38,936 bases of DNA, from contig CAIYZD010000743.1 of assembly GCA_903930585.1 (NCBI GenBank), positions 1 through 38,936 on the forward strand, read 5' to 3'. Position numbers and translations under genes: made by a program. This stretch comes from an uncultured Geobacteraceae bacterium (GTDB lineage Bacteria > Desulfobacterota > Desulfuromonadia > Geobacterales > Pseudopelobacteraceae). Positions 1,279 through 27,043 of this stretch are shown in pieces. Each line of letters begins with the position of its first letter. Positions within the stretch are counted from its first letter, which is position 1. A model generated the notes under the pieces. The model searched no databases. It was not told the DNA's origin and saw nothing but the letters and a program-made list of their open reading frames with translations.

Positions 1279-3339
1279 TCAGACTTCGATCCTGAATTCA
1301 ACTCCATCTTTGATGTTTCCGGCGGTAAGTCGCCCCCCCATATTCTGCTCAATGATTACTTTTGACATGTAGAGACCGATTCCGGTACCTTTATCCGGCG
1401 CCCGCGTGGTGAAGTACGGATCAAAAATTTTGGGCATGATCTCATCCGAGATTCCGCCGCAATTATCCCTGATAGAGACGACCGAACGTCCGGTTTCGCT
1501 GGTTACGCGGATATGGATACACGGTGCGGCAACAGAGCGTTCGACGCAGGCCTCACGGGCATTGGCAAGGATGTTGAGCAGAACCTGCGCATACTCGTTC
1601 TGGTAGCCGACAGCGGTCACTGCTTCATTATCTTCAAACTCAACCTGAACGTTATGGCAGGTCAAAGCTGCGGAGATAAATTCCAGCGTCTGATGAACCG
1701 TTTTTCCGACGGAAAAAACGCACTTCTGTTTGTCTTCGCGGAAGAAATTACGAAAATCGTCGATGGTGTGCGACATGTGAATGATAACATCCATCGCTGT
1801 GCCGATTTCCACTTTCAGTTCATCATTTGTTATGGTTCCGGCTTCGAATGAATACTGAAGATTCTGGATGATAAGGCCGATGTTGTTGAGCGGTTGCCGC
1901 CACTGGTGGGCGATGTTGTTGATCATCTCACCCATGGCCGCCAATCGCCCCTGCTGGATCAGAGTCTGATCCTTGTGCCGCAGGTCAGCTACCGCCAGAT
2001 CGATGCGCTCTTCCAGCGAATGGTTTAATTCTTCAAGATTTGCCTGTGCCGCCTCGCGCTCGGCTATTTCTTCTTCGAGCTCTTCGGTTTGTTCGAAGAG
2101 TTCATGCTCCATCTGTTTGCGGTCGGTAATATCCTGATTGCTGGCCCGCCACCCCCAGGGGAGGCCATCTGGCGTAAAAACCTGCTGGCAAACATGACTG
2201 ATCCAGCGAACCTCTCCTCCCTTGCACAGTATCCGCATTTCGATCGGGAGAATCTGCCCATGAGAGTCGGACTCATGAATGTGATGACGGAACAGTTCGC
2301 GGTCATCGAGATGTATGATTGTTTGCAGGAGTTCGCTGTTGTTGCTGAATTCCTCGATAGTATATCCGGTCAACAACATAACTGATGGCGACATGTAGAG
2401 GAACTTACCGTCCGGCAGACGCCAGTACTCCCAGTTGGAGGAATAATCCGCAACAATTTTAAGATGAGATTCACTTTCCTGTAACGACTCCTGCGCCATC
2501 TGATGTTCGGCGATTTCTTCCTCCAGTTGCAGGGTTTGGTGGTGAAGTTCGTTTTCGAACTGTTTCTGGGCGTGGGCGCTTTGAGACAGTTTGCGTGCTC
2601 CCGCTCCGGTTACCCCCAACCCCAGAATCCAGATCATGCCATGAAACGCGAGAGAACCGAGCATCTGACTGCTACCGGCATCCATCAGTGGCTGCAACGG
2701 TATGGAAACGCTGATGCCGCCACGCACGGAACCGACAGTATACCCCTGCGACGCGTGGCACTTCAGGCACGGTTTTTCGGTAATAAACGGTCTCATGAGC
2801 CGCATGTACGGCTTTTCATCAATGGTTACAACGGCGCTGACTTCATGTGAGCCGCTTTCAAAAGAACGAAGTGCGGCATCTTCCCATCGGTCGGCGGCGT
2901 TTTCGGGACGGAGCGGTTTCAAACTCGTGATGTGGGCTCGTCCGAGAAAAGGACTTCCTTCTTTGGAAAGTTCATTGACCTGACGGGTCATGTAAGCGGG
3001 GTTGATGAGCGTTAACTGTTTGCCGGAAGGAGTGCGGATATCGCGCTCCGCTATATGTGAGAGATACGGGTTGGGAGGAGACTGCTGCGTAACCGGAACA
3101 TACACACCGCCATGTGACGAGCCCCAGCGGCGATATAAAGCGTCCCGCTCGATAACGGCGCGTGCTTCAGCCAGTGCGACCTTGTGGAACACCTTTTGCT
3201 CGGCGTGGAGATTCCATAACCACGAGACACAGATCAGAAGTGTCCAGAAAACTGCCAATGTCCAGGCAAACAGCCTGATTTTGCGGGCGAGCAACGTATC
3301 TTCATCCATGAGGTTTCTTGTCAACTGCGGAGTCTGCAT
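1279..3339 (-). CDS. Sensor histidine kinase with periplasmic heme-c (DUF3365/Tll0287-like) domain and PAS domain
   Basis: A 686-residue membrane sensor kinase. Order: TM helix about 25-43; periplasmic DUF3365-type domain about 45-222 carrying a c-type heme motif CLKCH at 191-195; second TM about 226-246; glutamate-rich coiled coil; PAS domain about 291-409; second coiled coil; phosphoacceptor segment with His478 in AHQWRQPLN; ATPase domain with N-box [10 protein letters not shown]1 DNCGG and G2 [10 protein letters not shown]. It probably senses redox state or a small ligand at the heme. No response regulator is adjacent, so the partner is unknown. The ATG at 3339 has GAGAGG upstream at good spacing. 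Confidence 0.9.
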
Positions 3340-3433
3340 TGGATACCTCTCGTGGAGGGAGATCGTCCTGTCATGAGTGTACCATGCAAAATCCGCCTGG
3401 CAACAACGGGCCGGAAAAAATGGTCAATTCCGA

Positions 3434-3476
3434 GGATGAAAGATGAGGGATGAGGGATGAGGGATGAGGGATGAAA
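3434..3476. repeat. Heptanucleotide tandem repeat (GATGAGG)n
   Basis: About five imperfect copies of a 7-bp unit (GATGAGG, edge copies GATGAAA) sit 2 bp beyond the stop codon of the PAP2 gene. Lying outside the coding frame, slippage here would not alter a protein. Confidence 0.85.
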
Positions 3477-3478
3477 GG

Positions 3479-4372
3479 TCAAAACCGGTATTCTGCTGCC
3501 AGACCGAATCCCTGTTTACTGACCGTCGGCATGATATTCAGGGCCGTAGCATCGTGAGCGGTGTGATAGCGAACAATCGTCTTTCCGACAAAATACCCGA
3601 TTGCCCCACCCAAAAAGACATCGGATGCCCAGTGTTTATCTCCGTAAATGCGTGAAAATGAAGTGAGCGTAGCCAAACCATAGGCGATTGGAGGAACGTA
3701 TGGATTGTTTTCGTATTCTTCAGCAAAGACGGATGCAACTGAAAACGCTGCAGTCGAATGACCTGACGGGAATGAATAGTCACCCAATTTTCGGGAGGGG
3801 CCGTTCCAGGTAGTGGAAGATTTCCCGGTGTACGGGCGGGGCCGTTGGGCTATTTCCTTTACTGACCAGGTTAATGCGCCGCTGATGGCCAGGCTTTCCA
3901 GGGCGAGCAGGGATGTCTGGCGCGCTTTCGGATCTTCATGGAAGTGACCGTACAGATAAAACAGGCCGAGCGGAGGCACAATGTAAAGCGGGTCGCCAAG
4001 GGCATTGCCGACGTTTGCGACGGTATCCCCGCTTGAACTCTGATTTCTTTGCGCAACTTTTCTGATGTCGGTGTCGGCAAGATAGAGTGTTGCAGTTGCA
4101 CCGACGACTAATCCGGCTTTCAGCCAATCGCTTCTGTCCCAGTTGACGGGTGATACCAGCATGGTTCCGGTGTCGGTGACGTATCCCCTCACATATTCAG
4201 TATCGATCTTGTCGGCTTTGGCGGGCTGTGAGAGTGTTGTTTCGATGCCGATTCTTTCAACGCGGGAGCCACCGATTTCTTCTGCTGCCGAGACTCCGGC
4301 CAGGAAAGTTACCAATAGTGGTAAAGAATAAAAGATACCGAAACGATTTCGGAAAGATGAAAAAATACACAT
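3479..4372 (-). CDS. Exported PAP2-family phosphatase
   Basis: A 297-residue protein with a Sec signal peptide (hydrophobic core about 12-26). It has the three PAP2 signatures: KEIAQRPRP (KX6RP), PSGHS, and SRIYGDKHWASD (SRX5HX3D), holding the catalytic and proton-transfer histidines. Such enzymes dephosphorylate lipid phosphates or pyrophosphates such as undecaprenyl pyrophosphate or phosphatidate outside the cytoplasm. The ATG at 4372 is preferred because GGAGG precedes it closely; a GTG at 4399 overlaps the copA stop but has weaker support. The C-terminus ends GLAAEYRF, a terminal-Phe pattern reminiscent of outer-membrane proteins. It is the last gene of the UPF0158-permease-copA run. Confidence 0.85.
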   Translation of the reverse strand: MCIFSSFRNRFGIFYSLPLLVTFLAGVSAAEEIGGSRVERIGIETTLSQPAKADKIDTEYVRGYVTDTGTMLVSPVNWDRSDWLKAGLVVGATATLYLADTDIRKVAQRNQSSSGDTVANVGNALGDPLYIVPPLGLFYLYGHFHEDPKARQTSLLALESLAISGALTWSVKEIAQRPRPYTGKSSTTWNGPSRKLGDYSFPSGHSTAAFSVASVFAEEYENNPYVPPIAYGLATLTSFSRIYGDKHWASDVFLGGAIGYFVGKTIVRYHTAHDATALNIMPTVSKQGFGLAAEYRF

Positions 4373-4395
4373 TATTGCCTCCGGAAGCAGTATGC

Positions 4396-6609
4396 TCACC
4401 TATACTGGAGTGATGTATCAATTCGTTTCAGCAGCAGAGAGTTTAGTACGACTGATACGGACGAAAATGCCATTGCCAGACCTGCATATTCGGGTTTCAA
4501 TGTTATGCCGTAGCTCGAAAGCAGGCCTGCGGCCAGTGGAATGCCGAGTATGTTGTACAAGAGAGCCCAAAACAGATTCTGCTTAATTTTAGTCAGGGTC
4601 GCCCTGCCGATTGCAATCGCCCGTACGGCATCCATCAGATCGCTCCGCATAAGGACAATATCCCCGGTTTCTTTGGCCACATCGGTGCCTCCGCCGATGG
4701 CGATTCCTATATTTGCCTGTGCCAGAGCCGGCGCGTCATTGATTCCGTCACCGACCATTCCGACGATTTTGCCGCGGCTCTGATACTCCTTGACCACTTC
4801 CCGCTTGCGATCCGGCATTACGTCGGCTTCAAACGTATCAACTCCGGCCTGCTTCGCCACAATGGCCGCAACATCGGCGTGATCACCGGTAATCATGCAG
4901 GTTACTATACCCATACGACGCAGTTCGGCGACGGCCTGGGCCGATTCTGGTTTGAGGGTGTCGCTGAATGCTGCGACACCGACCAATGCGTTTTCGGCAG
5001 CAACATAGACCAGCGACTTGCCGGCGGCGGTCAATACGGAAACTTTTTTTGCCAGTGGTGTCAAGGAGATCCCGAGTTCTTCCATCAGTCGCTCGTTGCC
5101 GACCGCCAGCTGAAATCCTCCGTAACGGCAGGTCACTCCGATGCCGCCACGCTCCTCGAATTCATCAGCCTGTCCCGGCTCGACCCCCGCTTCCCGTGAT
5201 GCAGCAAGTGCAGCCTGGGCCAGAGGATGAGTAGAATATGCCTCAGCAGTGGCCAGACATTCGAGCAGCCGGGCTGGGTCGACAGAGCGGGAGACCGGTA
5301 CCAGATCGGTCATCTCCGGAGTTCCTCTGGTCAACGTTCCGGTTTTGTCGAGCAGCAGAACATTTATCCGGGAAATCGTTTCAAGAACGGAACCTTTTTT
5401 TACCAGTATGCCACGCCCGAGAGCGATGCCGCTCCCGACCATGATGGCCGTCGGTGTTGCCAGTCCCATGGCGCACGGACAGGCGATTACCAATACCGCT
5501 ATCGCAAACCGGAAGGAGGTCAGGAAGTCACCGGAAAAAACGGTGTACCAGAGAGCAAAGGTCCCGGCAGACAACAGTATTACTATCGGTACGAACCAGG
5601 CTGAGACGGCGTCGGCAAATTTCTGGATCGGCGCCTTATCTCCCTGCGCCTCACGTACCATTTTGATTATTTGCCCCAGAAGGGTCGCCTCGCCGATTCG
5701 GGTCGCCCGGATCCGCATGACGCCATTTGTGCTGACAGTAGCACCCGATACGAGATCCCCCGGTTTTTTCAGCACCGGCAGTGATTCGCCGGTAACCATG
5801 CTTTCATTGACGGCGCCTCCTCCATCAAGCACCTCGCCATCAACCGGAATGACATCTCCGGCACGTACCAGAACAACGTCGCCGACGCGGATAACGGAAG
5901 CGGGTACCTCCTTCTCGCCGTTTTCCGTAACCAGGCGGGCCTTATCGGCTTGCAGATGGAGCAGTTTTTTAAGTGCTTCGCTTGCTTTACCACGGGCGCG
6001 TGCCTCAAGATATTTTCCCAGGCGGATAAAGGCAATCAGCATGGCGGATGTTTCGAAGAATACGTCGCGGTGCGCGCCAAACAATCCGAAGTAGGCGGCC
6101 AGAGAATAAAAATATGCGGCCGAAGTCCCCAGGGCCACCAGGACATCCATGTTACTGCTGCGGTTTTTTAGGGCGCTCCATGCGCCACGATAGAAGATCA
6201 GACCGGCAGAGAACTGGATCATTGTGGCCAACAGCAGATTAAGCTGCATCACGGCATGATTTGAATGCAACTTCATCGTCAGCATGATCGGCAGGGAGGC
6301 GAACAGTGAGAAGATGAACCAGTTGCGCTGGGAGCGCAGGCTATCATCCTGGACAACTTCGGCTTCGTGCAGTTCAACCGGGGTGTATCCGGCGGCATGG
6401 ACGATGCTGAAGATGTCGGCGGCGCCAAGTTGCTTCGCATCAAAACGGACAAAGCCGGTTTCTACCGCCAGATTGACGATAGCCGTAGTTATGGCAGAGT
6501 GTTCAAGCAGCTTCTTTTCAAGGGTGGCGACGCAGGAAGCGCAGTGCAGTCCGCGCACGCCAAAAGTCAGTTCGCCGTCCGGTTCCATGGGGGGAGTTGC
6601 CTTGCTCAC
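4396..6609 (-). CDS. copA: Copper-translocating P1B-type ATPase
   Basis: A 737-residue P-type ATPase exporting Cu(I) from the cytoplasm. One N-terminal heavy-metal-binding domain with GLHCASC (Cys23 and Cys26), then paired TM helices, the actuator TGES, the metal-site motif CPC in the sixth TM (IACPCAMGLATP), phosphorylation motif DKTGTLT, the THPLA motif of the nucleotide domain, and GDGINDAP. The CPC motif and single CXXC domain are typical of CopA. Start is GTG at 6609 with AGAGG upstream. The gene begins 6 bp after the AI-2E permease stop, indicating one transcript. No CopZ chaperone or copper regulator gene is adjacent. Confidence 0.94.
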   Translation of the reverse strand: MSKATPPMEPDGELTFGVRGLHCASCVATLEKKLLEHSAITTAIVNLAVETGFVRFDAKQLGAADIFSIVHAAGYTPVELHEAEVVQDDSLRSQRNWFIFSLFASLPIMLTMKLHSNHAVMQLNLLLATMIQFSAGLIFYRGAWSALKNRSSNMDVLVALGTSAAYFYSLAAYFGLFGAHRDVFFETSAMLIAFIRLGKYLEARARGKASEALKKLLHLQADKARLVTENGEKEVPASVIRVGDVVLVRAGDVIPVDGEVLDGGGAVNESMVTGESLPVLKKPGDLVSGATVSTNGVMRIRATRIGEATLLGQIIKMVREAQGDKAPIQKFADAVSAWFVPIVILLSAGTFALWYTVFSGDFLTSFRFAIAVLVIACPCAMGLATPTAIMVGSGIALGRGILVKKGSVLETISRINVLLLDKTGTLTRGTPEMTDLVPVSRSVDPARLLECLATAEAYSTHPLAQAALAASREAGVEPGQADEFEERGGIGVTCRYGGFQLAVGNERLMEELGISLTPLAKKVSVLTAAGKSLVYVAAENALVGVAAFSDTLKPESAQAVAELRRMGIVTCMITGDHADVAAIVAKQAGVDTFEADVMPDRKREVVKEYQSRGKIVGMVGDGINDAPALAQANIGIAIGGGTDVAKETGDIVLMRSDLMDAVRAIAIGRATLTKIKQNLFWALLYNILGIPLAAGLLSSYGITLKPEYAGLAMAFSSVSVVLNSLLLKRIDTSLQYR

Positions 6610-6615
6610 AAATCG

Positions 6616-7677
6616 TTACCTCTGTTTAAAGTGACCACTCACGAAGTGTCCCCAGGTGATTTTGATTGCCGAAGCAATGGGGAGTGCCAGCAGGATGCCC
6701 CAGAAGCCGAGTGTCTCGCCAAGGGCCATGACCATGATGATGGTTACCAGCGGATTCAGGTTCATCGATTCTTTGAAAACGAGCGGCTTGATAACGTATC
6801 CTTCGACAAAATAGATCATTCCGAAGACGCCTATGGTTTGCCCGAGTGAGGCTGCCGTCTGGAATTTGAACCAGGCAAAGAAAAGGGCCGGCAGAGTCGC
6901 AATGATTACTCCGATGAACGGCAAAATTGAAGCAGCACCTGCAAAAACGCCGCAGAAGATCGGATGCGAAATGCCGAGCACAAAAAGAGCAATGGATGCA
7001 AGCAGCGCAACAATGAGGGAAACCATCACCTGACCACGCAGATATCCGCCGATACTGCTGTCGACTTCATGGGCGATGTCTACGATCTGGTCGCGCCAGC
7101 CGTCAGGAAGCCAGGATATCATGGTATCGATGACGGTCTGTTTATAGTAGAGCATGAAGAAAACCAGGATCGGGGAGAGGACGATGTTAAAGAGGTTGAA
7201 AAAAATGCGGGTTCCGAAGCTGTACGCCCAGAATCCGGTTTTTTCAGCTGCCGTGTCAATGTTTGCGGACGCTTTGTCGATCAGCCACTGAATTTCATCC
7301 GATCCGTAGCGGTCGGGGACACGGCTTTTCCATGACAGTGCGATTTGCTTTAGTTTCTGGATGTATGCGGGCAGATCAAGGACAAAAGAGTTCCAGCTGA
7401 TGGTTATGGCCGGAACGATGAACGTCAGAAAGAAGACGGTCAGAACCCCAAGGACGATATAGAGAAGCCCCAGAGCATAGATTCTCTTTACGCCGCGCTT
7501 TGAGGCACTGACGAGAAGAGGATCGAGCAGGTAGGCGATGACCCAGGAAAGCAAAAAGCATGAAATGGTGTGTTGCAGGGCATAACCGGCCGCGGCCAGC
7601 AGGCAGAACAGCAAAATAGTAGCGATAAACCGACCGTAATCGTTGCGTGGCGCATGGATGTGGTGAGTGTGTTCCAT
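6616..7677 (-). CDS. AI-2E/PerM-family membrane transporter
   Basis: A 353-residue polytopic membrane protein of the AI-2E transporter (PerM/YdiK/TqsA) superfamily. It shows the family pattern: N-terminal hydrophobic helices, a soluble segment about 105-150, then a block of TM helices with GGYLRGQ, SILPFIGVIIATLPAL and the late EGYVIKPLVF / NPLVTIIM motifs. Substrates vary in this family (quorum signal AI-2, Na+/H+ exchange) and cannot be read from sequence. Start ATG has GGAG closely upstream. It lies 9 bp after the UPF0158 gene and 6 bp before copA. Confidence 0.88.
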   Translation of the reverse strand: MEHTHHIHAPRNDYGRFIATILLFCLLAAAGYALQHTISCFLLSWVIAYLLDPLLVSASKRGVKRIYALGLLYIVLGVLTVFFLTFIVPAITISWNSFVLDLPAYIQKLKQIALSWKSRVPDRYGSDEIQWLIDKASANIDTAAEKTGFWAYSFGTRIFFNLFNIVLSPILVFFMLYYKQTVIDTMISWLPDGWRDQIVDIAHEVDSSIGGYLRGQVMVSLIVALLASIALFVLGISHPIFCGVFAGAASILPFIGVIIATLPALFFAWFKFQTAASLGQTIGVFGMIYFVEGYVIKPLVFKESMNLNPLVTIIMVMALGETLGFWGILLALPIASAIKITWGHFVSGHFKQR

Positions 7678-7686
7678 TTGCCGCTC

Positions 7687-8142
7687 CTAGGCGTGTTTCG
7701 CGCCCAGCAGTACCGCGTCCGCCGTGAAAAGGTTATTTTCCTCCATCCATGTTTTGAGGCGGTTGGAAAGAAAACGGTCCTTCAATAATACAAAGCGCTC
7801 TTCTTCGAGCGGATAAAAGGATAAAATGTCTTCAATTTTTCCGAAGGGCTTTTTTCCTGCCAGCGAGGTCTGCAGCAGGTTTCGTAATTCATGGTCGCCA
7901 ATCTGTACGACAAATTCAGTCAAAATCTGGCGCTCGCTCCGATAGTCAAACGGAGGGATTTCCAGGAAGCGTTCGTCGTTGTCCTGCAGTTGCCTGCGGA
8001 CGTCGTTACTGTCGGGAGAAGAGGGAACCGAGAATATTTCTCCCGTCAGCCGGTCGAGATAGTTGGCTTTATCAAGCTGGCCACTGGTAAATGCACCGAG
8101 GAGATCCTCCCATGATATTTCGACACTGTGAATCGTAGCCAT
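7687..8142 (-). CDS. UPF0158-family protein
   Basis: A 151-residue soluble protein matching the UPF0158 pattern from memory: N-terminal WEDLLGAF, YLDRLTGEIFSV, an IPPFDYRSE segment, a REILTEF-like helix and a terminal aromatic/charged region ending before WMEENNL. No catalytic motif is visible and the function of the family is unknown. It is the first gene of the four-gene minus-strand run and is divergent from lpxH across 62 bp. Confidence 0.75.
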   Translation of the reverse strand: MATIHSVEISWEDLLGAFTSGQLDKANYLDRLTGEIFSVPSSPDSNDVRRQLQDNDERFLEIPPFDYRSERQILTEFVVQIGDHELRNLLQTSLAGKKPFGKIEDILSFYPLEEERFVLLKDRFLSNRLKTWMEENNLFTADAVLLGAKHA

Positions 8143-8167
8143 CTCTGTACTCCTTGCGTTCTTCTTG

Positions 8168-8197
8168 TTGACATTTTACTCTTGATCAAAGCACAAT
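8168..8197 (+). promoter_or_regulatory. Candidate sigma-70 promoter placing lpxH on a nearly leaderless mRNA
   Basis: A perfect TTGACA at 8168-8173 is followed 18 nt later by CACAAT at 8192-8197 (4 of 6). Initiation about 7 nt beyond the -10 would fall on or next to the lpxH ATG at 8205, which has no Shine-Dalgarno. Confidence 0.4.
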
Positions 8198-8204
8198 CTG
8201 CGCC

Positions 8205-8942
8205 ATGCGAACCATTTTTATTGCCGATGCCCATCTCGTATCGCCGAGCGATACCAACTACTGTATGCTGCTTCGTTTTCTCCGCGAGCTGGAGGGGGAA
8301 CTGGACACTCTCTATATTGTGGGAGACCTGTTCGACTTCTGGCTTGGATTCCCGTCACATCCGTTCAAACAGTACGATTCCATACTTGACGCGTTAGAGA
8401 GACTGGTTATGCGCGGCTGCAGACTTGTCTACTTTGAAGGAAATCACGATTTCCATCTGGGTACGATTTTCTCACAGCGACTGAAAGCGGAAATCCGAAC
8501 CGGGCCGGCCATTGAGAGTGTACAGGGAAGGCGGCTTTATATCTGCCACGGCGATCAGATCAACAGTGAAGACCACTACTATCGCCTGCTGCGTCTCCTG
8601 TTGCGTACCCGCCTGGTTGCCGCGAGTGTCAGTCATTTTCCCCCGTCATGGGCGCAGAAGATCAGAGAGCGGTTGCAGAAACGGAGTCAATCCGGATATA
8701 CGCTAAAATCAGTCCGTTGGGACTACCGGCAGATCCTTCTTGAATTTGCCTCCCGTCTGCGGAGTCAGGAGTGTGACGGACTCGTTACCGGCCACTTTCA
8801 TCTTCCCCTGTGTGAAAAAATGCCGGACACTCCCTTCACCATTCTGTCTCTCGGAGACTGGATGGAGCAGCTTACCTATGGTGAGATGCTGGATGGTGAG
8901 CTTCGGTTGATGACCTATTCCGCCGATATTCCTATTTTTTGA
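8205..8942 (+). CDS. lpxH: UDP-2,3-diacylglucosamine diphosphatase (lipid A synthesis)
   Basis: A 245-residue calcineurin-like metallophosphoesterase that hydrolyses UDP-2,3-diacylglucosamine to lipid X at the inner face of the cytoplasmic membrane. Metal-binding motifs are in order: DAH near the N-terminus, GDLFDFW, GNHDFH, CHGDQ, and GHFH (GHTH in E. coli). The N-terminus MRTIFIADAHL matches the family start, so ATG 8205 is secure despite lacking a Shine-Dalgarno. The 3' end overlaps the convergent penicillin-binding protein gene by 11 bp. Confidence 0.9.
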   Translation: MRTIFIADAHLVSPSDTNYCMLLRFLRELEGELDTLYIVGDLFDFWLGFPSHPFKQYDSILDALERLVMRGCRLVYFEGNHDFHLGTIFSQRLKAEIRTGPAIESVQGRRLYICHGDQINSEDHYYRLLRLLLRTRLVAASVSHFPPSWAQKIRERLQKRSQSGYTLKSVRWDYRQILLEFASRLRSQECDGLVTGHFHLPLCEKMPDTPFTILSLGDWMEQLTYGEMLDGELRLMTYSADIPIF

Positions 8943-10320
8943 AAAACGCTTCCAAGGCCTGCGCGCCAACTTGCGGTGCTTTGACCTTCCATTTGTCAGG
9001 ATTGATAACCAGAGCAACCAGGGCTATACGGGGGTGCTGAATCGGTGCAAATGCAGCAAACCACGAGTAGTGCCCTTTAGGAGCGGTACCGTTTATGGAC
9101 CCCGTTTTGGCTGCTATCGGGACGTTGAGTAACAGTCGTCCCCGGCTGTCATGGAACGCTTTGCGGGAGGTCCCGGTAAGGACTGTGCTGGATAGCATGC
9201 GCGTTAATGACGCCGACGTCTCGGGTGTGACCAGACGTCGCAGTTCGTGCGGAGCAAACTGTTCCGTTTCAACACCATGGTCGTCGACAACGCTGCTGGT
9301 CAGTCCCGGCGCCATCATTTTCCCCCCGTTGGCTATTGCCGACATGATCACTGCCGCGTGTAGCGGAGAGATTTTCACTTCATGATCCAGACCGGCCCCC
9401 ATCAGCCTCAGTCCATGATTGCTGACCGGTTCTCCTGCCTGGCTCGGTTTTCCGGGAACGCCCGGCAGCAGTTTCTGGTTGAACCCGAAGCGGGAAACCA
9501 ACTCCATGACGGATGTTTTACCGGCGATGTCACTGGCCACACGTCCGTAAACCGGATTGATCGACTTGCTCATCGCATAGGTGGCATCCATGCGGTTATT
9601 CCTGCCGTGAGGGCTTATATCCCAATACCGCGGGTTTTCGGAATAAGAGCCGCCACGGAACTCGATCACGGATTCAGGCGTGATTTTGTGAGTTTCGAGC
9701 GCCGCAGAGGCGGTAATTATTTTGAACAGTGAGGCCATCGGATACAGTTCATAGGCAGAACGTTTTGCCCAGCCCGGATCGATTGATGAGTAGGCGGTCA
9801 TGCCGAGGATACGCCCCGAAGACGGCTCTATGGCGACAAAAACACCGTACGGCACTTTGTTCTTTGCCAGAAAGTCATAGACCCTCTGCTGCAGATCCCC
9901 CTGAATGGTGTAAATATGCTGAAGCCCGTCCGGAGTGCGGGCAGAAATGCGAGGTCCGTTAACTTGTGCCGTCGCAAGCAGGTCGCTGGCGATCTCGAAC
10001 CGGCTGACGGAAACGGGAGGTTTCGCGGCTTCGGCCGGTTTCGGAGTTGCTGCCGTGAGTGGTGCAATCAGGTTGTTGACGTGGGAACCGGCGGCCTTTG
10101 ATTGACGCAGCCCCAGAAAACAGAGCGGCGCAAGAGCCAGAACGATGGCAATGAACAGCAGTGCCAGCTTCAGCTTATGGAGGTGTCTCCCTGATGGAAA
10201 AGACAACCTGGAGCGTACCTCTTCTTCGACCGGTCTGAGTCGCCTGTTTTGGGAAGCGTCGCCGAAAAACCTCAAGCCGGAAGCGGATTTTTTTTGAGAT
10301 AAATGTTTTAGATCCTGCAT
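8932..10320 (-). CDS. Membrane-anchored penicillin-binding transpeptidase
   Basis: A 462-residue bitopic protein: basic cytoplasmic tail 1-50, TM about 51-70, Pro/Ala-rich linker, and a transpeptidase domain with all three signatures: SLFK (Ser197 nucleophile, Lys200), SIN at 253-255 and KTG at 405-407. It should cross-link peptidoglycan in the periplasm, or at least bind beta-lactams. It lacks the long N-terminal dimerisation domain of FtsI/PBP2, so it is a short class B-like enzyme rather than the main division or elongation PBP. A GGGA ribosome site is weak. Its 3' end overlaps lpxH. Confidence 0.85.
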   Translation of the reverse strand: MQDLKHLSQKKSASGLRFFGDASQNRRLRPVEEEVRSRLSFPSGRHLHKLKLALLFIAIVLALAPLCFLGLRQSKAAGSHVNNLIAPLTAATPKPAEAAKPPVSVSRFEIASDLLATAQVNGPRISARTPDGLQHIYTIQGDLQQRVYDFLAKNKVPYGVFVAIEPSSGRILGMTAYSSIDPGWAKRSAYELYPMASLFKIITASAALETHKITPESVIEFRGGSYSENPRYWDISPHGRNNRMDATYAMSKSINPVYGRVASDIAGKTSVMELVSRFGFNQKLLPGVPGKPSQAGEPVSNHGLRLMGAGLDHEVKISPLHAAVIMSAIANGGKMMAPGLTSSVVDDHGVETEQFAPHELRRLVTPETSASLTRMLSSTVLTGTSRKAFHDSRGRLLLNVPIAAKTGSINGTAPKGHYSWFAAFAPIQHPRIALVALVINPDKWKVKAPQVGAQALEAFFKK

Positions 10321-19764: not shown

Positions 19765-20130
19765 TCAGTACCAGAAGCTGTCCTCAATGAAGTAACCGAT
19801 TCCGGAAAAGATGATTTCCCTGCAGTACATCTGGCACAGCAACCCTGGGGTGCAAATGTATTGGAACTGCCGGAATCTCGTGATCTGGTTGAAGATCTCT
19901 GTCGCTCGGAAGGCGAATAGCCCGTTTCTGAAGCACCTGAGGCGTTTAATTTCAGAGATGTAGGCGTTTTTCGCACGACGTACCAAAAGTATATACCCCA
20001 GGCCGGCACTTGGAGCGCACAGGATAGTGACGATTTTCTTCGTGCCACGGCAGTATTTGAAAAGGTGGATGAGGATATGTGGAAATAATTTTTCCCGGTG
20101 CCTGCCGTGCGCTAATGTGCCTCGCTCCAG
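19765..20130 (-). pseudogene. Coding-like stretch without a normal start (unknown family, possible gene remnant)
   Basis: Downstream of polA on the same strand, one frame stays open for more than 115 codons with codon use like a real gene (third positions rich in G/C) and ends in TGA at 19765. The product is rich in Arg, Phe, Cys and Ile and includes FAFRATEIFNQITRF, LLCQMYCREI and the C-terminus YFIEDSFWY. Between the polA stop and TTG at 19986 this frame has no ATG, GTG or TTG, although it already looks coding near 20090. Either a rare start (CTG at 20130) is used, the TTG is used and the rest is chance, or this is a gene whose 5' end was lost. I do not recognise the family. Confidence 0.45.
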
Positions 20131-22901
20131 TTGGCTCCGTAACTGATATCAACCTTCAGCGGTACCTTTGTTTCGACCGCGTGCTCCATTTCCTCTTCCA
20201 CCAGCAGCTCCATCTTCAGCAGTTCATCTTCCGGCACCTCGAACACCAGTTCGTCGTGTACCTGCATAATCAGACGACTTTGCAGCTGTTCCGAGCGGAT
20301 GCGGGAATCAACCCGGATCATGGCACATTTGATGATATCGGCGGCTGAACCCTGGATCGGGTAGTTTATGGCGTTGCGGCGGGCAAAGGCCTGTATGTTG
20401 CCGTTGCTGCTTCCGATGTCGGGAATCGGGAGCCGGCGGTTCAGGATTGTTCTTACGCAGCCGTTCTTTTCAGCTTCCAGTATGCAGGAGTCCAAAAATG
20501 CGATGGCCCCATGGTGCCGTTCTTTATATGCGTTGATGAAATCTTCAGCGGTTTTGCGGGCGATGCCGAGTTGCTTTGCCAGCGAGAAGGAACCCTGGCC
20601 GTAGATAATGCCGAAATTGATGGCCTTGGCCTGGCGCCGCATCTCAGGCGTGACCATTTCGGGAAAAAGCCCGAAAATCTCCGAGGCGGTGCGGGTATGG
20701 ATGTCTTCATCGTTCGCAAAGGCGTGACAAAAAACCGTGTCGCCGGAAAGATGTGCCAGCACGCGGAGTTCGATCTGGGAATAGTCGGCGGACAGGATAA
20801 CGTGCCTTGGCGGGGCGATAAAGGCGTGGCGGATGCGGCGCCCCTCTTCGGTGCGAATCGGGATGTTTTGCAGATTCGGGTCTGACGACGAGAGTCGTCC
20901 GGTATTGGTTACGGTCTGGTTGTACGATGTATGCACCCGGCCGGTGCGGCGGCTGACCAGGCGGGGCAGGGCATCCGTATAAGTCGATTTGAGTTTGGCA
21001 ACAGAGCGGTAATCAAGAATCAGGCGGGCGATTTCATGCTCTTCGGCAAGGGATGCCAGTACCTCGATATCGGTCGACCAGCCGGTCTTGCCCTTGTTTT
21101 TTTTGCCGCTTTTCAAGCCGAGCCGATCGAAGAGTACCTCGCCCAGCTGTTTGGGGGAATTAAGATTGAATTGTTCTCCCGCCAGAGCATACACCTGCTC
21201 TTCAAGGGTTTTCATTCGCCCGGCGAAGTCGGTTGACAGGCTGTTCAGGAGCGTGCTGTCCAGAAGAACACCATGGTTCTCCATTTCTGCAAGGATAGAC
21301 AGCAACGGCATCTCGACCGTGTGAAACAGGATGTCGTCACCCCCGGTCGTCAACAGCGGGCCGAATTTTTGACGCAAAAGCCATGTGGCATCCGCATCTT
21401 CCGCCGCGTAGCGTGCCGCCGCTTCCAACTCCACTTCGGAAAAGTTCTTTTGCTCTTTGCCGCTCCCGACGACATCACTGTAACTGATCATGCGGTGATT
21501 CAGCTGCTCCTGCGCCAGGGCGTCCAGGCCGTGCCCCTGACGTGACGGATTGAGCAGATAGGAGGCCAGCATGGTGTCGAACCAGACCCCGGCCAGCGTG
21601 ATGCCGTTGTTGGCCAATACCTGCATGTCAAACTTGATGTTCTGGCCGACCTTGCGCAGGGCAGGATTCTCCAGCAGGGGGCGCATTCGGTCGAGAACGC
21701 TGTCACGGGGGAGCTGGGTGGGGTCCAGGTGCCCTCCCCCCTCCCGGCCCCCCCCCGCTGGGGGGAGGAGCACATTCTTTTCATCTGCGTAGTGAGCAAA
21801 TAACGTTCCCTCCCCCAGCGGGGGAGGGGCAGGGAGGGGGGGAGTTGTCACATGACCGACCGGGATATAATACGCCTCATGGTCACGGTATGAGAATGAA
21901 AGTCCGACAATTTCCGCTTGTCGCGGGTCAAGACTGGTCGTCTCCAGGTCAAAGGCAAACTCGCCGGCCTGCTCCAGTGCGGTTATCAGAGCTTCGAGCC
22001 CTTCCGTCGTGGTAACGGTATGGTAATCTTCCGTGGAAAGGGTGGACGTACCGGTTAATTCCTTTATTAGGGAAGTAAACCCGTATTTTTTGAAGAACGC
22101 GTTCAGTGTTTCCTGGTCCGGTTCGCGGGCTTTCAGCGTCTCCGGGTCAACTTCAAGAGGGACATTGCACTCTATCGTTGCCAGCCGCCGTGACAGCAGA
22201 GCCTGCTCACGGAACTCACGCAGCTTTTCACCATTTTTCCCTTTAACCTCTCCGGCCCTTTCCAGGAGTCGCTCAAGCGAACCAAATTCGACAATCAGCT
22301 TGGTGGCTGTTTTTTCTCCAATGCCGGGAACACCGGGAATGTTATCGGATGAATCGCCCGCCAATCCCAGGATATCGGTTACCAGTTCGGGGCCGACACC
22401 AAAACGCTCAACCACCCCGGCAATCCCCGTCTCCTTTCCTTTCATGGTATCCAAAAGGGTGACACGATCGGTTACGATCTGCATCAAATCCTTATCGCCG
22501 GTAACAACCACCACCTTGCCACCACGGTCAGCAAAGCGCCCGGCCAGGGCACCGATAATGTCGTCAGCTTCGTATCCCTGAAGCTCCAGCGTCGGAATGT
22601 TGAACCCCCGCACAACCTCACGAATCGGCTCCATCTGCATGCGCAGGTCATCCGGCATTGCGGCGCGGTTGGCCTTGTATTCCGGGTACATCTCGGTGCG
22701 AAATGTAGTTCTCCCGGCATCAAAGACAACGGCAACATGCTGCGGGTTGTAATCCTTGAGCAACTTGAGCAGCATCTGGATAAATCCGTAAATAGCGTTG
22801 GTGGGATGACCGGAAGGGGAGGAAAGGTGACGGATGGCGTAGTAGGCGCGGTAGATATAGGAGGAGCCATCAACCAGATAGAGTGTTTCATGTGTGCTCA
22901 T
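20112..22901 (-). CDS. polA: DNA polymerase I
   Basis: A 929-residue DNA polymerase I for primer removal and repair. The 5' nuclease domain spans about 1-290 (LVDGSSYIYRAYYA, TGDKDLMQ, GDSSDNIPGVPGIG). The 3'-5' exonuclease keeps its acidic residues: Asp318 and Glu320 in FDLETTSLD, Asp425 in NIKFD, and Tyr/Asp in YAAEDAD. Polymerase motifs A (SADYSQIELR), B (RRQAKAINFGIIYGQG) and C (QVHDELVFE) are intact. ATG 22901 with GAGG upstream overlaps the stop of the DUF4177 gene as ATGA. Residues about 351-396 are an extra Pro/Gly-rich insertion encoded by a palindromic repeat, replacing a short loop in relatives. Confidence 0.96.
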   Translation of the reverse strand: MSTHETLYLVDGSSYIYRAYYAIRHLSSPSGHPTNAIYGFIQMLLKLLKDYNPQHVAVVFDAGRTTFRTEMYPEYKANRAAMPDDLRMQMEPIREVVRGFNIPTLELQGYEADDIIGALAGRFADRGGKVVVVTGDKDLMQIVTDRVTLLDTMKGKETGIAGVVERFGVGPELVTDILGLAGDSSDNIPGVPGIGEKTATKLIVEFGSLERLLERAGEVKGKNGEKLREFREQALLSRRLATIECNVPLEVDPETLKAREPDQETLNAFFKKYGFTSLIKELTGTSTLSTEDYHTVTTTEGLEALITALEQAGEFAFDLETTSLDPRQAEIVGLSFSYRDHEAYYIPVGHVTTPPLPAPPPLGEGTLFAHYADEKNVLLPPAGGGREGGGHLDPTQLPRDSVLDRMRPLLENPALRKVGQNIKFDMQVLANNGITLAGVWFDTMLASYLLNPSRQGHGLDALAQEQLNHRMISYSDVVGSGKEQKNFSEVELEAAARYAAEDADATWLLRQKFGPLLTTGGDDILFHTVEMPLLSILAEMENHGVLLDSTLLNSLSTDFAGRMKTLEEQVYALAGEQFNLNSPKQLGEVLFDRLGLKSGKKNKGKTGWSTDIEVLASLAEEHEIARLILDYRSVAKLKSTYTDALPRLVSRRTGRVHTSYNQTVTNTGRLSSSDPNLQNIPIRTEEGRRIRHAFIAPPRHVILSADYSQIELRVLAHLSGDTVFCHAFANDEDIHTRTASEIFGLFPEMVTPEMRRQAKAINFGIIYGQGSFSLAKQLGIARKTAEDFINAYKERHHGAIAFLDSCILEAEKNGCVRTILNRRLPIPDIGSSNGNIQAFARRNAINYPIQGSAADIIKCAMIRVDSRIRSEQLQSRLIMQVHDELVFEVPEDELLKMELLVEEEMEHAVETKVPLKVDISYGANWSEAH
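21732..21845. repeat. REP/BIME-like inverted repeat pair inserted in frame inside polA
   Basis: Two GC-rich palindromic units face each other. The right one contains CCCTCCCCCAGCGGGGGAGGG (interrupted palindrome at 21808-21828), and the left one (about 21741-21770) is its inverted, slightly diverged copy. About 35 bp of AT-richer DNA lies between. The reverse complement of 21802-21844 aligns closely with 21732-21776, so the whole element has long imperfect terminal inverted repeats. It contributes roughly 38-45 codons to polA without a stop or frameshift. Confidence 0.85.
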
Positions 22902-23173: not shown

Positions 23174-23956
23174 TTATTTTTGGAAACCAAGCTTGGTGGA
23201 AATCTCTTCTCCCGCTTTCAGTACCAGTGGAACCAGTTCATTTTTGATCCGCTCGTCGGAGAAGCGCATTGACGGCCCGGAAATACTGACGGCACCGATA
23301 ATGCGGCGGGTATAATCACGAATGGGAGCGCTTACACACTTGACACCGGTATCAAGCTCTTCATCGTCATACGCATACCCTTGCTCGGAAATTGTTTTCA
23401 GTTGTTTTTTCAAGGTATCGCGATCAGTAATAGTATTGGCCGTATAACTTTTCAGTTCTTTCGACGGGAGATAGTATTCAAGTTCTTCATCGCTCATGTG
23501 CGCTATCTGTACCTTGCCGGCGGCGGTACAGTAGGCCGGCAGTCTCGAACCTACCCGCGGAACAACCCTGACGGTCATTGCGGTTTCGACCACATCAAGA
23601 TAGACGATGTTGAAGTCTTTCAAAATTGAAACGTATGTTGTTTCATTGCACTCGGCAACCAATGCTTCAAGCACCGGTTTCGACTGCCTCAGGAGTCCCA
23701 TCTGTTTGATGAAGGTCTGGCCGAGCTCAAGAGTTTTGAGTCCGAGACGGTAGTTCTCCGTCACCTTGTTCTGTTCGATGTAACTGCGGGATTCAAGTGT
23801 CGCAAGCAGCCTGAACACATTATTTTTGTGAAGCTTCAAGCGCTTGCTCAGTTCAGTGACACCCAGTTCATCAACTTCACCATGAAACTGCTCCAGAAGG
23901 TCGAGTGCGTGGGACACTGCCTGTATAAGATATTCCGATTTTTCTTTTTTTGCCAT
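23174..23956 (-). CDS. IclR-family transcriptional regulator
   Basis: A 260-residue regulator. The winged helix-turn-helix spans about 10-70 (ALDLLEQF, LGVTELSKRLKLHKNNVFRLLATLESRSYI), followed by the IclR effector domain about 80-255 with ETTYVSIL, AYCTAAGKV, GYAYDDEELDTGVKCVSAPI and GAVSISGPSMRF. These proteins repress or activate genes for aromatic or small organic acid catabolism; the ligand here cannot be told. It is transcribed divergently from the universal stress gene, and the 225-bp region between has palindromes that may be its own operators. Confidence 0.92.
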   Translation of the reverse strand: MAKKEKSEYLIQAVSHALDLLEQFHGEVDELGVTELSKRLKLHKNNVFRLLATLESRSYIEQNKVTENYRLGLKTLELGQTFIKQMGLLRQSKPVLEALVAECNETTYVSILKDFNIVYLDVVETAMTVRVVPRVGSRLPAYCTAAGKVQIAHMSDEELEYYLPSKELKSYTANTITDRDTLKKQLKTISEQGYAYDDEELDTGVKCVSAPIRDYTRRIIGAVSISGPSMRFSDERIKNELVPLVLKAGEEISTKLGFQK

Positions 23957-25478: not shown

Positions 25479-25506
25479 CGGGGTCACGAAAGTGACCCCG
25501 TTTTTT
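25479..25506 (+). terminator. Rho-independent terminator
   Basis: CGGGGTCAC, a GAAA loop, GTGACCCCG and TTTTTT follow the NrfJ-like gene. The T-run overlaps the last codons of the convergent radical SAM gene. Confidence 0.93.
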
Positions 25507-27043
25507 ATGGTGTTTGTGCCGCCTTTGATGGGGCGTGCTCCGGAACGATACTGAGCACCCTCTCATAGCACACCTTTCCTTTTTTTATTCTTCCACGTCC
25601 GGTAAACAGATCACCCAGTAGCAGCCACCCCCACGGATTTTCCGGCTGCCGTTCCGTTACCTCCTGCAATTCCTGTTCGGCCTTATCGTATTCACGACGC
25701 TGACGGTACCATTCTGCCGCTAGTACGTTCGTCGTAAAGCAGTATCCGAGGTGTTTCTTCTGGCGTTTGAAACGCTCAGGATCATTCAGGCGATTGTTTG
25801 TCAGTTCTTTGAGAAGGCGAACAGTTGAAGGTCCACGCGTAGATGTGACGTAAAGTGCCGCCGGGCGGGTATCCGCAAAAATGCCGGGGGTTGCCGCTCC
25901 GGTTGCAATGGCGTCTTTATAGAGTCTGGTACCCGGATAATAGGCAAGCGGAGAAACATAGCCGTCATCTGGATGGATATGGCGGACAAGGTCAATGGTC
26001 TGCCGGATATCCTCGCTTGTTTCTCCCGGAACGTCACTGATCAGGTAAATCGACAGATTGATACCGATCTCGCCGACCAGCGCACAGGCGTGCTCAATCT
26101 GTGCCGGAGCGATGTTTTTACCCAGTTGCCGGAGTATACGCGGCGAGCCTGATTCGACGCCGAGCTGAATGCATTCGCAGCCGGCCCGTTTCATTTCGAT
26201 TAACAGCTCTTCGTCAATCGCAGTGACTCTTGACTGGCAGTTCCACAGTATATGAAGTTCCTGCTTCTGCAGCAATGAGCAGAATTCAAGGACACGCTTC
26301 CGGTCGGCGGTAAAGGTGTCATCACGGATCGAAAAATAGATCAGACCGTATGTGTGACGAATATACCGAATCTCTTCAACAATTGCATTCGGTGAGCGGA
26401 ACCGGACTTTTCTCCCCCAGAAATCGGGTGAGCTGCAAAAAAAGCAGGTGGAAGGGCAGCCACGGGTTGTCACAATAAACTCGGATTGCAAATCGATATC
26501 AAGGCCGACCGATATGTCAAAGTAGCGTGCAGGCAGTGGCAGACTGTCAAGATCATCACGGTTTTTCCGTTGGGGAGTGATCGTGATTTTTCCGTTACGG
26601 CGAAACGCTAGTCCCGCGATAGTGCGCCATTCGGCGCCGGTTGACAGTTTTTCCGTCAATTCCAGCAGCGTCGACTCTCCCTCGCCCAACACCACGATAT
26701 CCACCGGTGAATCTTTTACCAATATGTCTTCATAGCAGAAGGTTGCGTGTCCCCCCCCCATTACAATGGTGCTGCCCGGGAGAAGGGCACGGCACGTTCG
26801 TGCAAGTTCCAGTGACGTATGCCTGTTATGAGTCCATTGGGAGATTCCGATGACATCCGGTCTGAACGTCAGTAATTCATGGGAAATATCGGAGGACGTC
26901 CAGCCGGAGAAGTTGGCCAGAAGCGAGTCATATCCGGCTTCGCGCAAACAGGCGTGCAGGTAGCATACCCCGGTCGGGACGAGACTTATATACGGGTCAT
27001 TACGGTGTGGTAACCCCGATTGGTAGGTGAGCAGGATCTTCAT
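25505..27043 (-). CDS. B12-binding-domain radical SAM protein with C-terminal TPR-like tail
   Basis: A 512-residue enzyme. Residues 1-135 form a cobalamin-binding-type Rossmann domain (PTGVCYLHACLREAGY, VIGISQW, IVMGGGHATF, VVLGEGE). The radical SAM barrel follows with C196, C200 and C203 in RGCPSTCFFC (CX3CX2C) for the [4Fe-4S] cluster. The last 70 residues look like a TPR pair (AEWYRQRREYDKAEQELQE, WGWLLLGDLFTGRG). The methylated or rearranged substrate is unknown. Its ATG lies 4 nt after the T-run of a terminator and has no Shine-Dalgarno. It is convergent with the NrfJ-like gene. Confidence 0.87.
   Translation of the reverse strand: MKILLTYQSGLPHRNDPYISLVPTGVCYLHACLREAGYDSLLANFSGWTSSDISHELLTFRPDVIGISQWTHNRHTSLELARTCRALLPGSTIVMGGGHATFCYEDILVKDSPVDIVVLGEGESTLLELTEKLSTGAEWRTIAGLAFRRNGKITITPQRKNRDDLDSLPLPARYFDISVGLDIDLQSEFIVTTRGCPSTCFFCSSPDFWGRKVRFRSPNAIVEEIRYIRHTYGLIYFSIRDDTFTADRKRVLEFCSLLQKQELHILWNCQSRVTAIDEELLIEMKRAGCECIQLGVESGSPRILRQLGKNIAPAQIEHACALVGEIGINLSIYLISDVPGETSEDIRQTIDLVRHIHPDDGYVSPLAYYPGTRLYKDAIATGAATPGIFADTRPAALYVTSTRGPSTVRLLKELTNNRLNDPERFKRQKKHLGYCFTTNVLAAEWYRQRREYDKAEQELQEVTERQPENPWGWLLLGDLFTGRGRIKKGKVCYERVLSIVPEHAPSKAAQTP

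Follow-up and report, generated by a model that had tools for sequence, protein, structure and literature searches.

The polA gene in a 38,936-nucleotide (nt) stretch of DNA from an uncultured Geobacteraceae bacterium (contig CAIYZD010000743.1, the whole stretch being referred to here as the window) carries a palindromic element in frame within the part of the gene that encodes the 3'-5' exonuclease domain of DNA polymerase I. The element is an inverted dimer, made up of an alpha and a beta unit, of a short GC-rich palindromic repeat that is dispersed in the genus and that we call REP-A, after the repetitive extragenic palindromes (REPs). The protein loop in which the dimer lies is expanded in every genome of the genus in which it could be read, is hypervariable, and is host to at least two unrelated palindrome families, REP-A and a second family termed REP-B. 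On the basis of sequence comparisons, the explanation that we favor, with moderate confidence, is that the loop serves to tether a docking motif, probably one that binds the sliding clamp, and that palindromes have entered this tether repeatedly at little cost to the enzyme. Genomes, contigs, and loci are cited below by G, C, and L numbers, respectively, the window genome being G000.

A palindromic dimer in polA and its dispersed relatives

The features of the window that bear on the element are as follows.

20112..22901, minus strand: polA, DNA polymerase I, 929 residues from the ATG at 22901 (translation and Pfam domains)
21717..21851, minus strand: expanded loop of the 3'-5' exonuclease domain, residues 351-395 (translation, alignment, and Klenow match)
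21802..21840, minus strand: REP-A alpha unit, 36 of 39 positions matching the reference unit CCCCCTCCCTAACCCTCCCCCGCTGGGGGAGGGAACTTT; codon phase 2
21771..21801, minus strand: spacer separating alpha and beta, of a length that differs among species
21736..21770, minus strand: REP-A beta unit, 34 of 35 positions matching the reference unit CTCCTCCCCCCAGCGGGGGGAGGCCGGGAGGGGGG; codon phase 0 in the window
21798..21809, minus strand: GTLF core, residues 365-368, overlapping the alpha-unit shoulder; the conserved residues are LF

The reference units were derived from a listing of genomic units that includes polA copies. Pfam domains for the 5'-3' exonuclease, the 3'-5' exonuclease, and the DNA_pol_A polymerase were all present in the window PolA. 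In the coding direction the alpha unit comes first and is followed by the spacer and the beta unit, and the two units account for most of the 45-residue stretch between H350 and Q396. The inverted arms (21736-21768 and 21809-21841) are 33 nt each, 82% complementary, and 40 nt apart. A 21-mer from the inner hairpin was matched three times in the window at three or fewer mismatches, always within the element, and was not matched in 100 shuffles; the predicted DNA fold of the element strand was -43.1 kcal/mol (z = -4.65), and 1 of 200 shuffles was equally good. The reading frame is open across the element, with a translation that includes PVGHVTTPPLPAPPPLGEGTLFAHYADEKNVLLPPAGGGREGGGHLDPTQLPRD. 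Arms, shuffles, and translation agree in this respect with the preliminary description of this DNA, which had reported an inverted GC-rich palindromic pair with a linker in an open polA frame. E. coli Pol I has 7 residues between H387 and Q395, and the window loop is thus about 38 residues longer (45 versus 7), which is the increase that had been proposed; the Klenow match begins at window residue 394. The acidic residues of the exonuclease (D318, E320, D425, and D502) are present in the window and at least 90% conserved in a 53-row alignment, so that the catalytic residues are intact, as had likewise been stated.

When the 120-nt element was compared with the 5.9-Mb draft genome of the window organism, seven further places were matched at an E value of 0.014 or better, two of which represent one dimer on contig C4; the existence of other copies, on which the first interpretation depended, was thereby confirmed. 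A query consisting of the alpha half and the spacer gave matches at an E value of 0.001 in 28 of the 39 genus genomes, polA copies included, with up to 23 matches in one genome (no more than 23 candidates were scored in any genome) and 6 in the window genome, 2 of the latter lying in polA itself. Outside polA, the units occurred in both alpha and beta forms and as inverted pairs, with spacers that by eye range from approximately 8 to 43 nt, and the dimer layout resembling a bacterial interspersed mosaic element that had been noted in polA is thus found elsewhere as well. The window-genome copies on C222, C4, C618, and C277 fall outside long frames, and the copy on C124 sits where two long frames meet. 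Moreover, REP-A-type palindromes were found at three sites (4388, 7500-7547, and 8796) within one 2329-residue frame (2973-9959) of window-genome contig C495 (L267), which contains two ketoacyl-synthase and two FabA-like stretches; peptides encoded at these sites include HLNPPPLGEGDF, PTPHPSPAGEGSALPLSPVGKGGI, and PPSQPLPAGGRSKLPP. REP-A, with dispersed units of 35 and 39 nt in inverted dimers, therefore has the size (20 to 40 nt), dispersal, and arrangement of a palindromic unit, and its presence in the intact polA frame together with copies between genes is the pattern of elements like the Rickettsia palindromic elements (RPE). By eye, the GTAG/CGTC tag is absent from the ends of the alpha and beta reference units and of the window copy.

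The preliminary description had also proposed looking for a transposase like the REP-associated tyrosine transposases (RAYTs). PF01797 (Y1_Tnp transposase) is present in 35 of the 39 genus genomes. Intact REP-A or REP-B patterns were found at none of 30 Y1_Tnp loci (92 kb in total, with at most 1.5 kb per side and shorter flanks at contig ends); as a yardstick, the same patterns were matched 9 times in 428 kb of polA neighborhoods, polA loops included. Mobilization by a neighboring RAYT is therefore unsupported, and this link was dropped. As a separate observation, REP-A units in several genomes adjoin a recurring flank (GTTGCAAC ... GCCATGAAATCAGCATGTTGCAACTTC-like) near position 1500 (L180, L181, L183, L185, L186, and L190 and, less clearly, L194 and L196), and flank and units are perhaps parts of a larger composite palindromic element.

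A hypervariable loop with a conserved core

The expanded PolA loop was found in 37 of the 37 genus genomes, out of 39, that had a readable loop (loops L031-L060, L161-L167, and L109 were read; G024, in which part of the gene is missing, and G058 are outside the count). Since the loop is expanded throughout the genus genomes read, the window insertion is not a one-off event, and a Rickettsia-style single insertion in the window genome was rejected as an explanation. The earlier view, that a repeat mobile in this genome had been tolerated in a loop, held with respect to the dispersal of the repeat and the tolerance of the loop but not with respect to novelty, because the insertion is not new to this genome. 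Of the two outcomes that it had named as contrary to itself, the first came about in part: insertions are present in close relatives as well, some of them made of unrelated DNA (REP-B) or without a remaining palindrome. The second did not, as further copies of the repeat exist.

In another genus of the family, a genome listed as one contig (G143; L272) has a clear alpha-beta dimer at the same place. Shorter or different inserts were seen in two genera of another family (L141-L144), with an alpha-like hairpin in L142. No insert was present in the remaining members of the order that were read or in 12 further loops of a second locus set, in which a readable loop was obtained from 14 of 29 loci; L159 yielded no PolA frame. 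In L141/L098, from another family of the order, the polA loop contains a different GC-rich palindromic stretch (CTCCCTCGATGGGAG) with LPLPTSRQGMG downstream, possibly representing a third palindrome family.

The hypervariable-loop alignments are rough and the source genomes are mostly metagenome bins. Among the 52 long loops that were parsed, 37 contained LF (A type), 14 contained Q[TIS][GD]F[DN]F (B or Q type), and one (L089) contained neither. A fuller tally, to which rows lost to parsing were added, including L098, L109, and L272 by hand, gave 39 LF loops, 15 Q-type loops, and 2 with neither core (L089 and L098) out of 56. All six Leu codons and both Phe codons are used for LF in the 37 loops, and when these loops were shuffled LF appeared in 5.4 of them on average and in 14 at most. 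Most other loop positions vary widely; the G and T preceding LF vary less. Because an LF or Q-type core is kept, because all Leu codons are used, and because LF is rare in shuffles, we take the core to be under selection at the protein level. Selection appears to act on the LF or QxxFxF core and not on the Pro/Gly stretch encoded by the palindromes.

The Q-type core accompanies REP-B, including in loops whose arms are decayed or indistinguishable, and is scattered over the tree. Both REP-B arms in the polA genes of L051, L082, and L083, which belong to three separate supported clades, exceeded all 2200 shuffles. In L082, remains of what appears by eye to be an alpha unit precede REP-B, with an alpha match (20 of 39) that lies within the shuffle range. 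The REP-B core was found in 24 of the 39 genus genomes and its reversed control in 1. A BLAST search with the 141-nt REP-B gave 8 matches in 6 of the 39 genomes, 5 of them in polA as judged by contig and place; dispersed REP-B copies are visible only with the short core pattern and not with this longer query. When core types were mapped on a PolA tree built without the loop (71 of 74 rows, L092, L153, and L163 being lost to parsing), at least 9 changes of core type were required over 48 rows, and a recount without L146 and L147 again gave 9. Grouping of the 13 Q-type rows into one clade was rejected (approximately unbiased test, P = 1.98e-5), the tree being a quick one that included long branches.

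At unchanged residues outside the loop, codon identity between the window and its relatives is approximately 51%. In the alpha unit, codon identity with the window was 10/10 in L045, 10/11 in L044, 8/8 in L043, 6/6 in L034, 5/5 in L039, and 5/6 in L038; the first two stand out, as such identity was reached by 6 of 878 twelve-codon windows outside the loop in L045 and by 11 of 889 in L044. The beta DNA is near identical in the window, L034, L038, L044, L045, L079, and L272, with L043 less similar. Its reading phase is 0 in the window (34 of 35), L034 (31), and L043 (27), and 2 in L038 (31 of 35), L044 (35), L045 (34), L079 (33), and L272 (33), all of these counts being above the shuffle maximum of 22 of 35. 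Since beta is read in two frames in different species, what is preserved there is the DNA and not the peptide, and conservation of the beta-encoded stretch as a peptide was rejected. The preserved units would be explained by re-insertion or by conversion from copies elsewhere in the genome. Across the 55 long loops scored, alpha exceeded the shuffle maximum in 13 and beta in 8.

The genes upstream of polA on the same strand, an adjoining IclR-type regulator (23174-23956) and, further upstream, a B12-binding radical SAM protein (25505-27043), look ordinary.

Proposed docking to the sliding clamp and competing explanations

Clamp-binding motifs can take the form QxxLxF. Among 29 distant PolAs, 24 had short loops and 5 had long loops, and clamp-like cores were found in all 5 of the latter: ELF (L116), GFNF (L124 and L127), SDLF (L135), and QMSLF (L137, Anaerolineae). 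In addition, LF, LL, or LxF was present at the loop site in nine of nine alphaproteobacterial PolAs from a plasmid collection, taken from two sets of 76 and 65 matched records, of which 12 and 25, respectively, were listed; the cores of these loops (L300-L308) are, in order, ELSF, DLF, GLF, DLL, DLL, QLDF, DLF, DLF, and DLF. The DnaE of the window genome (L270, G000:C709) contains AQVSLFGTEE, a canonical-looking clamp-binding motif. The beta-clamp-binding consensus in print is QL(S/D)LF (PMC9690074), and it is nearly matched by QMSLF of L137. The loop cores resemble this consensus in ending in LF or FxF, and both Q and FxF occur in 14 of 14 B-type loops, which were selected by that pattern. 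E. coli Pol I has been reported to be modulated by the clamp (PMC6010275), and the word "motif" is absent from the text of that report; in the accessible parts of the literature searched, no motif for contact between Pol I and the sliding clamp was met. Together, the recurring cores, the near-consensus QMSLF, and QVSLF in DnaE suggest that the loop tethers a docking motif for which the sliding clamp is the likeliest partner. The Rhizobiales PolA of L135 was also seen to contain a second motif, GGDLFAPPP, outside the loop, in the linker before the exonuclease domain.

According to this proposal, the loop would be a disordered tether around a docking core whose likeliest partner is the beta sliding clamp. 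Because a tether of this kind is disordered, its length and filler would be nearly free to change, and extra residues on either side of the core would cost little. GC-rich palindromes have few stop codons, and none in the frames used, so that insertions would survive in frame; inserted palindromes would be refreshed by re-insertion or by conversion from genomic copies and would then decay, their effect on the enzyme being mainly a matter of tether length. The GTLF core would either have come from the alpha unit, whose shoulder (GGGGAGGGAACTTT) can encode GEGTL, or be an older LF core beside which the unit inserted. Similarly, an arm of REP-B can read GFDF with one base changed from the usual genomic copy.

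A number of points weigh against the docking proposal or against parts of it. The window core, EGTLF, differs from QL(S/D)LF in lacking the Q; the A-type loops as a group have no Q either, with E at position -3 in 23 of 37, and the nine alphaproteobacterial PolAs stem from few genera. The loops were classed by regular expression once the pattern had been noticed, so that the motif counts are post hoc, and 13 of 110 rows fell out of the motif count (L098, L141, L109, and four short loops were not parsed, and L107, L150, L152, L153, and L157, which are short, and L163, which is long with ESLF, were also missing). L089 has neither core, L098/L141 have GGFEL, and L085 groups with the family in the tree yet has no insert. 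Core switching could also represent exchange of loop segments between species. With respect to the preservation of DNA, the unit match counts are partly circular, since the reference units drew on polA copies, a circularity that leaves the two-frame argument unaffected. Ordinary twelve-codon windows often reach the alpha identity in L043 (114/895), L034 (371/906), L039 (564/917), and L038 (517/895), and there is no alpha identity in L032 (1/3), whose PolA is the nearest to that of the window at 87%, or in L033 (3/5). Finally, the 13 loops in which alpha exceeds the shuffle maximum all have it in phase 2, and a search of the tree for many beta phase switches showed that only 2 changes suffice for the 8 beta-phased rows. 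As alpha keeps one phase and beta needs only these 2 changes, a single ancient insertion of the dimer, repaired later, could account for both.

Two alternatives deserve most attention. In the first, which we consider possible but appreciably less probable than docking, the stretch is a surface loop segment, disordered or locally packed, in which LF or FxF anchors to PolA itself, with no partner and with the palindromes as neutral filler. A motif packing on PolA itself would look identical to a docking motif, an anchor would also result in a core that is kept while the filler varies, and the missing Q of the window core fits this explanation. Arguing against it, similar cores, including QMSLF, occur at the same site of distant PolAs in otherwise unrelated loops, and two quite different cores, GTLF and QTGFDF, interchange. 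The second alternative, about as tentative as the first, is repeated independent insertion, in which transposition prefers the site and places REP-A or REP-B anew in separate lineages. Loops with both REP-B arms in three separate clades, the scatter of Q-type cores over the tree, the reading of beta in two frames, and the near identity of alpha in L044, L045, and the window despite saturated synonymous sites would all be accounted for in this way. However, alpha lies in one phase, 5 to 20 nt from the loop start, in 13 of 13 loops above the shuffle maximum; the spacers of the window, L034, L038, L044, and L045 look related by eye; no intact repeat pattern lay beside the transposase genes of the 30 Y1_Tnp loci; and conversion from genomic copies accounts equally well for the pristine units.

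A role as nucleic acid, with the palindrome being kept in the polA message or gene, for example, as a hairpin delaying translation ahead of the polymerase domain, is very unlikely. The strong predicted DNA hairpin and the DNA-level preservation of the units are in line with such a role, but close relatives such as L032 have an open in-frame loop with no recognizable palindrome, and the units above the shuffle maximum amount to only 13 alpha and 8 beta among the 55 long loops. An assembly or binning artifact, for which the 854 contigs and 5.3% contamination of the window genome might speak, can be dismissed almost entirely, as it is contradicted by the dimer at the same place in the genome listed as one contig (G143); in addition, the element leaves the frame open and recurs in relatives.

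A bolder version of the docking proposal, which we regard as speculative and rather improbable as a whole, would be that the PolA loops of several bacterial groups act as clamp-docking tethers and that in Geobacter relatives the loop has been repeatedly rebuilt by mobile palindromes, REP-A leaving GTLF and REP-B leaving QTGFDF, with at least 9 core changes. In 132 genomic REP-B copies counted by hand, the codon of the second Phe of QTGFDF would specify Ser in 115, Phe in 16, and Tyr in 1; in the B-type polA loops it specifies Phe in 14 of 14, that Phe belonging to the defining pattern. This contrast between genomic and polA copies lends support to the idea of a rebuilt docking core.

Relation to known repeats and significance

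Earlier publications already describe in-frame REPs in genes of Geobacter and in the gene for DNA polymerase I. As described in the available text of one study, short palindromic REPs, mostly dimers, lie in frame in DNA repair and replication genes, with DNA polymerase I among the targets; flexible linkers or loops were proposed as REP-tolerant sites, and recB of X. campestris and X. oryzae has different REPs at about the same site (PMC3733652). These GTAG/CGTC REPs share with REP-A the short palindromes, the dimers, the in-frame intragenic position, and DNA polymerase I as a target, and they differ in that REP-A and REP-B have neither tag at their ends. The word "Geobacter" does not occur in the text of that study, and its available part describes neither a conserved core in the receiving loop nor an exchange of families within one genus. 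In Geobacter itself, multicopy repeats in frame in genes (PMC2996986) and repeats within genes (PMC2700814) have been reported. These multicopy sequences resemble REP-A and REP-B as intragenic repeat families, a likeness by description only, and polA is not named among their targets in the available portions of the two reports. Rickettsia RPE, in-frame palindromic insertions in genes likely to encode functional proteins (as described in PMC3733652), share with REP-A the in-frame insertion of a palindrome, again by description only and in a different lineage. In the accessible text of the best-ranked open-access literature, supplements aside, no description was found of this loop as a hot spot common to two palindrome families, or of its core.

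The polA genes examined here provide a natural series in which one enzyme loop is filled by different mobile palindromes across one genus, and this series lets the tolerance, decay, and possible exaptation of intragenic repeats be measured. The docking reading also proposes a site at which the Pol I of some bacteria could contact the sliding clamp. If the bolder version were true, selfish DNA would repeatedly have supplied an important enzyme with a short protein-docking motif.

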